DNA from: Anaerocolumna cellulosilytica
Lineage (GTDB): Bacteria > Bacillota > Clostridia > Lachnospirales > Lachnospiraceae
Length of the DNA stretch: 64,000 nt
Direction: 5' to 3'
Assembly (NCBI RefSeq): GCF_014218335.1
Contig: NZ_AP023367.1
Location: 2,233,501 to 2,297,500, forward strand
A program made the position numbers and the translations under genes. Positions within the stretch are counted from its first letter, which is position 1. Each line of letters starts with the position of its first letter. Below are positions 2,875 through 63,156 of the stretch, one piece after another. The notes below the pieces were generated by a model. That model was not told the origin of the DNA, made no database searches, and saw nothing but the letters and a program-made list of their open reading frames with translations.

Positions 2875-3480
2875 TACTTATACCTTCCCTTCTTTTAGAT
2901 ATTTTGTGGTAAAGTAGCACCTGTATTACCAGTCCAATAATACGCTGTTACTTTTACATAAATATTTGTAAACCCCCAATTCCTATGTCATGGTACACTT
3001 GCTGTTGTTACCCTCCTTTCTAACTTTCATAAGTTCGTGAATTATGAAATAGCCATTCTTATTAATGGAACCAGTCACAATCGCCAAAACAGGTTTCAAT
3101 GCAGTGGCAAGTCACCTTTATGTTGGTGACTGTACTTGCGTCTGTATTCTAATCATAGCGTTTCGCAATTGTCTATTTCATGTGCCAGTATTTCGGACTG
3201 CGATATATATTAATATAAAATTGGGTTTGAGTATTGGGACTGTGCAAGGAAGAAAGTGAAAACTTTTTGCTTTAGAGAAGAAGTAAAATATAGGTTACTT
3301 TATTATAACACGAAATGTAAAATTATTCCACACTATTCTGTGCAATTGAATCTGTTTCTGGTATTTTATTTTTAGTAGAATTTAATCATAATACAGAGTA
3401 ATAGTGGTAGTATTGCATCGAAATATATGCTACAGTTTTAAAAGGAGTTTATAAGTGAAAGGGTAAGAAAAGAGGTTTAT
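2875..3480. other. Divergent intergenic region between mannanase and GH115 genes
   Basis: About 600 bp without a convincing protein gene. It must hold the promoters of the leftward mannanase gene and the rightward GH115 gene. Its main content is copy 1 of a structured repeat at 3044-3181 (listed separately). Just before the GH115 gene a strong ribosome site (AAAGGAG at 3441-3447) precedes GTG 3455, which stops after three codons; the real start at 3481 has its own weaker AGAGG site. I see no clear terminator or operator in the rest. Confidence 0.6.
3044..3181 (+). ncRNA. Structured intergenic element, copy 1 of 3
   Basis: The element is closed by a 9-bp terminal stem, ATGAAATAG (3044-3052) with CTATTTCAT (3173-3181). 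Inside are a 7-bp stem CAGTCAC (3072-3078)/GTGACTG (3126-3132), a small hairpin GCC-AAAAC-AGG(T), and an apical hairpin GTGG-CAAG-TCAC (3104-3115). Copies at 23453 and 62995 share the core (GGTTYCRATGCRGTGGCARG) but have different stem sequences that still pair. The last pair of the apical stem here is G-U only if the plus strand is the RNA. It lies 300 bp before the GH115 gene and 170 bp from the divergent mannanase start. I do not recognise it as a known riboswitch class. Confidence 0.6.
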
Positions 3481-23368: not shown

Positions 23369-23452
23369 AAAATGTTATGGTATAATTTATTTGACAAATA
23401 ATACATATACAAATATATTTCCTAAAATTAATAAGCTTTATTATGATAGTCA

Positions 23453-23583
23453 ATTGCGAAACCGTTATCTTATGTGTCAGAACCAGTCAAAAAACACCTA
23501 AAACAGGTTCCGATGCGGTGGCAGGCCACCTTTAATTTGGTGTTTTTGCCTACTTCCAACCTCTAGACCTATCGTTTTGCAAT
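23453..23583 (+). ncRNA. Structured intergenic element, copy 2 of 3
   Basis: Terminal stem ATTGCGAAAC (23453-23462)/GTTTTGCAAT (23574-23583), ten pairs with one G-U. Inner stem AAAAACA(CC)/(GG)TGTTTTT (23490-23498/23539-23547), small hairpin ACCT-AAAAC-AGGT, apical hairpin GGTGG-CAGG-CCACC. The same fold is built from different sequence in copies 1 and 3. The G-U pair is compatible only with the plus strand as RNA. It ends 158 bp before the serine hydrolase gene. Confidence 0.65.
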
Positions 23584-23599
23584 CACCTATTTATGATGA

Positions 23600-23704
23600 G
23601 GGTGTCAAAAGTCTTCATAAAAAAATAGAGCAGTAATTGGCACAAGCAAGAGAACGAATGTGCGAATTACTGGTTCTATATAATAATTTGTGCTTTTGAC
23701 ACCC
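23600..23704. repeat. 105-bp inverted repeat, MITE-like or leader hairpin
   Basis: The ends are a perfect 12-bp inverted repeat, GGGTGTCAAAAG (23600-23611) and CTTTTGACACCC (23693-23704). The inside also pairs: ATAGA-CAGTAATT-CACA against TGTG-AATTACTG-TCTAT. Such ends resemble terminal repeats of small non-autonomous elements, but I see no clear target duplication. It sits 37 bp before ATG 23742. Confidence 0.65.
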
Positions 23705-62818: not shown

Positions 62819-62994
62819 GAATACTCCTTTCAATATGATAATTCTAAGGAATTGCATAAGCATAAAATTGTTTTCTGTAATGAATATATCAAAAAACAAT
62901 CCATATTTCTATACATAAAATTTATGTTCACATGCACAAAGTTTTCAAATTGACAGAATTAAGTAAAAGATTTATGATATAGCTTATATAGTCA

Positions 62995-63117
62995 TTTGCG
63001 ATACTGTTTTTTTCTGTTTTGAAACCATCAGATTCACCAAAAAGGGTTCCGATGCAGTGGCAAGCCGCCCTTATTTTAATGATTTTGCCCACTTCCAATC
63101 GCCACCTATTTCGCAAA
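62995..63117 (+). ncRNA. Structured intergenic element, copy 3 of 3
   Basis: Terminal stem TTTGCGA (62995-63001)/TCGCAAA (63111-63117), small hairpin ACC-AAAAA-GGGT, apical hairpin GTGG-CAAG-CCGC (one U-G pair, plus strand only), conserved GGTTCCGATGCAGTGGCAAG core and downstream TTTTGCCCACTTCCAATC shared with copy 2. The outer inner stem is weaker here (ATCA/TGAT). It ends 40 bp before the AraC start codon, inside its probable 5' leader. Confidence 0.65.
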
Positions 63118-63156
63118 GGTCTAATTATAACGGATAAGTTCACAGGAGGAAGTAGT

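Follow-up and report, generated by a model that had tools for sequence, protein, structure and literature searches.

The Correia repeat enclosed elements (NEMIS) of Neisseria are ~105 to 157 bp long, have inverted-repeat ends, lie in many cases 5' of genes, and show evidence of mobility; they can form mRNA hairpins, and binding by RNase III has been reported (PMC2649163, in the available sections of that paper). In the Bacillus cereus group, the bcr repeats are described as short intergenic sequences with a conserved secondary structure, of which bcr1 to bcr3 are called MITE-like, and 40 to 51% of the copies of 18 bcr families were found to be transcribed (available sections of PMC2267715 and PMC3446304). 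Among these repeats, bcr3 is the only one that the available sections of PMC3446304 report as correlated with mRNA decay; therefore, an effect on stability does not follow from the mere presence of such a hairpin in a leader.

The repeat described here occurs three times in a 64,000-nucleotide stretch of the Anaerocolumna cellulosilytica genome (the window; G000:C1:2233501-2297500). This genome (G000) is a single contig of 5,430,627 bp. Like the Correia elements, as characterized in the available sections of PMC2649163, the repeat has inverted-repeat ends, many copies 5' of genes, the potential to form hairpins, and evidence of mobility. Its host is a different one, however, the likeness is one of descriptions and not of sequence, and RNase III binding is a feature of the Correia elements (PMC2649163). 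The repeat also carries a hairpin tip that recurs across genera on unrelated stems, which is not among the Correia features described in those sections of PMC2649163. It resembles the bcr repeats, again compared by description, in being a short intergenic repeat with conserved secondary structure, whereas its ends, its transposase type, and its cross-genus tip are unlike the bcr repeats as the available sections describe them. REP elements, which are associated with RAYT transposases, have conserved stems and a foot tetranucleotide. The present hairpins are likewise dispersed and extragenic, with several per genome, but the tip is conserved here and the stem is not, in contrast to the conserved stem of REP elements.

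A sequence-only reading of the window had reported three copies of a core in the same orientation, and all three were recovered on the plus strand with 0 mismatches (3092-3111, 23506-23525, and 63045-63064; 0.04 expected from shuffles). The intergenic position that it gave is borne out for copies 1 and 2, which are overlapped by no ORF of ≥80 aa. Its extent for copy 2 (23453-23583) was too narrow, the element spanning 23446-23590 (Table 1). In copy 1, decay has gone further in the left terminal inverted repeat than in the right one, and the left repeat is absent from the end-sequence matches. Direct repeats flanking the three window copies are only 5 to 6 bp long, and the TTATGA flanks of copy 2 are a possible decayed target duplication.

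Table 1. Positions of the three element copies and their parts in the window
Feature	Position	Strand	Sequence	Remarks
MITE copy 1, whole element	3034..3176	+		Aligned with 15 other G000 copies; model R1 match G000:C1:2236534-2236676, E 1.4e-23
MITE copy 2, whole element (copy under study)	23446..23590	+		R1 match G000:C1:2256946-2257090, E 2.4e-30
MITE copy 3, whole element	62988..63124	+		R1 match G000:C1:2296488-2296624, E 1.4e-21
Left terminal inverted repeat, copy 2	23447..23462	+	TAGTCAATTGCGAAAC	0 mismatches to TAGNNAATTGCGAAAC
Right terminal inverted repeat, copy 2	23574..23589	-	TAGGTGATTGCAAAAC	2 mismatches
Right terminal inverted repeat, copy 1	3160..3175	-	TAGACAATTGCGAAAC	0 mismatches
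Left terminal inverted repeat, copy 3	62989..63004	+		2 mismatches
Right terminal inverted repeat, copy 3	63108..63123	-		3 mismatches (chance matches in the window also reach 3)
Covarying inner stem, 5' arm, copy 2	23490..23502	+		Alignment columns 45-57
Covarying inner stem, 3' arm, copy 2	23535..23547	+		Alignment columns 91-103
Conserved 25-base hairpin tip, copy 2	23506..23530	+	GGTTCCGATGCGGTGGCAGGCCACC	Pattern match
Hairpin tip, copy 1	3092..3116	+	GGTTTCAATGCAGTGGCAAGTCACC	Pattern match
Hairpin tip, copy 3	63045..63069	+	GGTTCCGATGCAGTGGCAAGCCGCC	One base off the 25-base pattern
Short direct repeat, left, copy 2	23441..23446	+	TTATGA	6 bp, below the 8-bp counting level
Short direct repeat, right, copy 2	23591..23596	+	TTATGA	6 bp, below the 8-bp counting level

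With ≤2 mismatches, the 20-base core occurs 17 times in G000. Sixteen of these occurrences align over the whole ~144 bp, and the 17th, which has no covariance-model match, is probably due to chance. A covariance model built from the 16 copies matched at least 50 distinct places in G000 at an E value of ≤1e-3 (counted by hand from the matches listed, with both strands merged). Fourteen of the 34 further places were read; all were more diverged than the 16 copies, and the exact tip was present in none of them (0/14). Loci L017 to L023 were kept out of the alignment of G000 copies; L019 and L022 fall in model-found places, and the other five do not.

The element ends are TAGGCAATTGCGAAAC and its reverse complement, and the inverted repeats are 16 bp long. 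At ≤3 mismatches, the 11-base end was detected at both ends of 13 of the 16 G000 copies and at one or more ends of all 16. Direct repeats of ≥8 bp, most commonly 11 to 12 bp, flank 5 of the 16 G000 copies and 10 of 16 same-genus elements (L054 to L072, excluding L061, L062, and L066, which have other ends or are incomplete and were also left out of the Shine-Dalgarno counts below). When flanks of different copies were paired as a control, such repeats appeared in 0.4% and 0.8%. The earlier suggestion of a small mobile repeat is supported by the inverted repeats and target duplications, by the number of close copies (16), and by the existence of an autonomous relative that shares these ends. 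We conclude that each of the window copies is a ~144-bp non-autonomous DNA transposon (MITE).

A same-genus search with the model gave matches in at least 10 of 15 genomes, G000 included. Most of the relatives fetched have the same ends and a different interior that again forms a hairpin, with a tip that resembles the present one by eye, and 228 matches to the end sequence at ≤1 mismatch were present in genome G003. Mechanically called ORFs overlap the tip in 6 of the 16 G000 copies; we attribute them to frames open by chance or to starts called too far upstream. Among the same-genus loci L054 to L072, there is also a sister MITE of ~150 bp with the same ends, another inner hairpin, and a similar tip (AGCTTCAGTTGCC..GGCAAGATTCAGCT). 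The same-genus loci L061 and L062 are short elements with other ends, terminating in TTTTGCAACAGTC and matched weakly by R1, and probably belong to a different MITE family. In G000, loci L197, L199, L201, L202, L203, L211, L212, and L213 hold putative elements of 42 to 63 bp with little beyond two inverted repeats and 3 to 5 mismatches between the ends; these are perhaps remnants.

The transposase that mobilizes a MITE need not be in the same genome now. Scanning viral contigs for the exact end yielded 29 stretches, of which 4 (L227, L232, L234, and L241) contain inverted-repeat pairs of the element type, 1,756 to 3,650 bp apart; 3 of these 4 pairs are flanked by direct repeats of ~9 to 12 bp. 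One intact transposase ORF (485 to 507 aa; Pfam DUF772) is present in each of L227, L232, and L241, and in L234 the transposase ORF is broken and a neighboring second ORF looks transposase-like. Judging from these protein matches, the autonomous relative with the element's ends is an IS with a predicted IS1182-like DDE transposase. Its likeness to IS1182-like IS lies in a full-length relative with the same ends encoding a transposase that matches both NCBIfam NF033551 (IS1182 family) and Pfam DUF772. It is unlike them in that NF033551 is matched at 68 to 73 bits and the cutoff of 270 is not reached, and in that the noncoding parts of these viral-contig IS showed no tip hairpin.

In G000 itself, this transposase had no match at an E value of ≤1e-10, and only two fragments were detected in the genus. 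Ends were determined for 7 of the 12 DUF772 loci in this genome and are all GGGGCTGTAAAA; the element's inverted-repeat pair was found in none of the 12 (3.2 kb each). For long G000 elements with these ends, 20 regions at ends lacking an obvious partner gave only pairs of 42 and 50 bp (≤3 mismatches), and locus L199 has one 1.9-kb end pair with 4 mismatches between the ends. Given that no matching transposase was found in G000 and no inverted-repeat pair of the element at the DUF772 loci, the G000 copies look orphaned. A transposase acting in trans would once have moved them, and they may now be immobile here because the transposase was not found in this genome. A search of plasmid and phage records with one 171-base query gave no match.

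Regarding structure, the sequence-only reading had described stems that differ in sequence among the copies and keep their pairing. This holds for the inner stem, which stays paired through double changes at 6 of 13 pairs in the 16 G000 copies (0 of 500 shuffles as high). The terminal stem, in contrast, is a conserved terminal inverted repeat with a covariation score of 0.142, compared with 0.135 in shuffles (167 of 500 as high), and its copy 1 version (ATGAAATAG/CTATTTCAT) had included part of the flanking direct repeat (TTTCAT). Since clear covariation in the G000 copies is confined to the inner stem among these helices, we regard the terminal stem as the transposon end and the inner stem as the structured part. 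With no more than three copies to compare, transposon inverted repeats can pass for an RNA stem that covaries, which is a trap for analyses of this type. Single-sequence folds of the three copies gave z values of -2.08, -2.52, and -0.53; thus, the fold is not strong in all three copies.

Two further helices were considered and rejected. A pseudoknot between alignment columns 29-39 and 61-71 is 92% paired in the G000 copies and crosses the inner stem; its covariation is not clearly above that of shuffles (176 of 500 reached its score, and 25 of 500 its number of pairs with double changes), and its 5' partner is not evident by eye in other genomes. The local hairpin TCACC/GGTGA, part of the RNAalifold consensus, is broken in copies whose longer inner stem has compensatory changes (L001, L002, and L007; by eye). 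An alternative pairing of the tip, GTGG/TCAC, is 100% paired in the G000 copies; the GGT/ACC model given below is favored over it because of the double changes across genera. The view that the element falls in no known RNA class agrees with the window having no Rfam match at gathering score; near copy 2, there was one chance-level match at an E value of ≤5. By E value, 22 Rfam matches were obtained from 25 other loci, all below gathering score and 19 of them to microRNA-precursor families.

The 25-base tip (GGTTYCRATGCRGTGGCARGYCACC) is present exactly in 27 stretches of 12 other genomes. By title, 26 of these stretches are from Lachnospiraceae, Roseburia, Butyrivibrio, or Lachnoclostridium, and one is labeled only Clostridiales; viral contigs contained no exact tip. 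In a set of 397 genomes, the tip was detected with ≤3 mismatches in 7 and exactly in only 2 (G000 and G381). The other five genomes have one match each, with 2 to 3 mismatches, and the reversed control matched 2 genomes; these single matches may be due to chance. The order-level model search matched at least 4 of 392 genomes (E ≤ 1e-3), all of the same family, and the class-level search matched at least 1 of 391 (E ≤ 1e-4), which was G000. In G165, short loops take the place of the apical TGCRGTGGCA, and TTCC and AAGTC are kept in the 7 copies listed.

Outside G000, the tip forms the apex of long hairpins with paired stems. From copy to copy, these stems have little sequence in common in some genomes (e.g., G410 and G413) and resemble each other in others (e.g., G411). 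In a cross-genus alignment of 46 of the 64 listed hairpins (10 from G000), 81.0% of the cells were paired, compared with 64.5% in shuffles, and 163 cells had double changes, compared with 63.4; the double changes were spread over 16 of 19 pairs, and 0 of 500 shuffles were as high. Sliding the 3' partners by one column still gave a covariation score of 0.316, compared with 0.408 in register, so part of this score is not register specific. Within the tip, double changes from T-A to C-G (2 rows), C-G to G-C (4 rows), and T-A to A-T (3 rows) were observed. The tip is modeled as a GGT/ACC helix, a TC/TC internal loop, a C-G pair, a GA/A loop, and a TGC-RGTG-GCA hairpin; on the complementary strand, the TC/TC loop becomes GA/GA. 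Inverted repeats are present at both ends of 13 of the 16 G000 copies and of 3 of 41 other tip copies (at one or more ends of 9 of the 41). Given this rarity around tips from other genomes, the tip and the transposon ends are separable. A tip that is kept across genera on a freely changing stem offers a starting point in the search for its recognition protein. Searches by sequence and in the literature on related elements, with preprints and most subscription papers outside their scope, found no description of it in print.

Contig ends lie ~12 to 45 bases from the hairpin tip in L123, L132, L102, and L158 to L161. Because contigs end beside tips, the hairpins may break assemblies and be undercounted. 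In L096/L150 (G410), the element is immediately followed by an altered second copy of the hairpin's right half, which includes GTGGCAAGTCACC, and a ~52-base part of the right flank recurs at several other G410 places.

Orthologous pairs of sites constitute a natural experiment on the evolution of such stems. L090 and L108 lie before the same gene, which from its protein sequence we take to be of the glycogen-phosphorylase type, and have flanks that are 86 to 88% identical; the two have the same tip, and the changes in their stem pairs are compensatory. The tip is also identical at L131/L135 (flanks, 84 to 94% identical), with one compensated pair, and at L151/L279, double changes affect two of the ten inner pairs, and the tip itself contains two changes. 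At L105/L276, the stem base is kept, the inner hairpin is replaced, and the tip is absent. In L276 (G409; ~258-331), the stem base of L105 is topped by an inner stem and loop of another kind, which may represent a further interchangeable tip. At L089/L275, L153/L282, and L154/L283, one species looks empty by eye, with neither stem arm present, which argues that the whole hairpin is gained or lost as a unit. L098/L277 and L146/L278 were too diverged to read. Unrelated paired stems around the same tip in one genome (e.g., G410) could arise by rapid compensatory change, by template-switch palindrome correction, or by insertion of the tip into existing hairpins; the last of these is disfavored because the empty sites show no prior matching stem.

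The argument that G-U pairs identify the plus strand as the RNA fails in the long stems of the G000 copies (terminal stem, 18 G-U versus 19 A-C; inner stem, 8 versus 8). Elsewhere in these copies, the counts were 15 G-U versus 0 A-C for GTGG/TCAC (one nearly fixed pair contributes 14), 38 versus 7 for the pseudoknot candidate (26 from two nearly fixed pairs), 7 versus 1 for the tip pairs (P = 0.07), and 8 versus 25 for the outer extension of the inner stem (P = 0.005). The stem mismatches of the 41 copies from other genomes, read on the tip-bearing strand, comprise 17 G-U and 44 A-C (P = 7e-4); this result points to the complementary strand and comes mostly from G410 and G413. Among 21 codirectional copies of other genomes (gene directions entered by hand), wobbles numbered 21 sense versus 7 antisense (P = 0.013), or 14 versus 7 without L101 (P = 0.19). 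The wobble count leaves out L099, L102, and L103, whose tips lie at or near a contig end. On the basis of this conflicting evidence, the plus strand is not established as the RNA, and a role in mRNA is only suggested.

A Shine-Dalgarno sequence plus start codon is located ≤45 bases from one end in 12 of the 16 G000 copies (9 sense and 3 antisense) and in 13 of the 16 same-genus elements, compared with 87 of 1,339 control windows (6.5% per side). In 20 of those 25 cases, the Shine-Dalgarno sequence starts 15 to 19 bases from the element. In the window, such a site is found on the antisense side of copy 1 and on the sense side of copy 3, whereas none lies within 45 bases of copy 2. By eye, 3 of the 4 printed IS flanks also contain a Shine-Dalgarno-like sequence. 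The pattern suggests that the transposase prefers such targets or that insertions at this site are selected. MITEs landing just 5' of ribosome-binding sites could alter the translation of many genes together.

We consider it likely that the element is a MITE carrying a selected hairpin module, i.e., a mobile shell with a covarying inner stem and a cross-genus tip that would serve as an mRNA element in leaders and gaps within operons. Because most copies precede start codons, we infer that the hairpin would be transcribed and act as a structured mRNA element. By analogy with the Correia elements or the bcr repeats, it would most likely be a protein-binding, processing, or stability element, with the tip as the probable recognition site at which a protein would bind and expression would be affected. 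The absence of the exact tip from all 14 further G000 places read counts against this reading, as do, for copy 2, the lack of a nearby Shine-Dalgarno sequence and start codon and a flanking repeat of only 6 bp. A broader and distinctly tentative proposal, which we rate as rather unlikely, is that the near-fixed 25-base tip is a family-wide recognition module that moves on rewritten, re-paired stems between shells in Lachnospiraceae and is read by a host or element protein; the shells would be inverted-repeat transposons and solo long hairpins. If this were true, stem rewriting at orthologous sites would suggest that palindromes are actively rebuilt around a loop that stays the same.

DNA palindromes can also remain paired via template-switch repair, which counts against an RNA reading. 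The tip and stem may accordingly be imagined to act at the DNA level during transposition or replication, in a single-stranded or cruciform state, their pairing being kept by template-switch correction. We regard this as a possible but doubtful explanation. It would fit the absence of a wobble strand bias in the two long stems of the G000 copies, the occurrence of both orientations relative to genes, the long, near-perfect stems with unrelated sequences between copies of one genome, and the replaced inner hairpin on a kept stem base at L105/L276. DNA-only constraints, however, do not predict the excess of A-C over G-U mismatches in the 41 copies from other genomes, and conservation of the tip requires some recognition anyway. 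If the interior were instead the functionless part of an ordinary decayed MITE, the missing tip in the 14 further G000 copies would be accounted for, and related sequences without structure can exceed shuffle controls. This reading is nevertheless improbable in view of the exact tips in 12 other genomes, partly on unrelated stems, and of its retention at three pairs of orthologous sites, in one of which it has two internal changes.

It is equally hard to credit that the hairpin is an intergenic transcription terminator module replacing ordinary terminators, even though many tips of other genomes lie 30 to 70 bases after a stop codon and, at the two convergent gene pairs L111/L280 and L106/L281, the tip hairpin of one species is matched in the other by a terminator-like hairpin of the ordinary kind (by eye). 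At L153 and L154, a separate terminator-like hairpin adjoins the element (by eye), and most G000 copies precede start codons, a position in which a terminator would shut off the gene. The conserved, structured tip and the 9 of 16 G000 copies directly preceding a sense Shine-Dalgarno sequence and start codon would also suit a cis-regulatory, riboswitch-like leader controlling a gene set. Nevertheless, the largest shared ORF family covers only 4 of 27 loci of other genomes, the neighboring proteins look unrelated by eye, and both orientations occur in place of a fixed sense orientation with linked downstream genes; moreover, target duplications and inverted repeats explain the spread. With no widely shared flanking gene family and with both orientations present, a riboswitch-like regulator of one gene set is very improbable.

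A second, different MITE-like element adjoins copy 2 (23600-23704), with inverted repeats GGGTGTCAAAAG at 23600-23611 and 23693-23704. An inverted-repeat pair of GGGTGTCAAAAG, 143 bp apart, also occurs in locus L204 (3012-3154), and a single end of this type lies beside the G000 copy L005.
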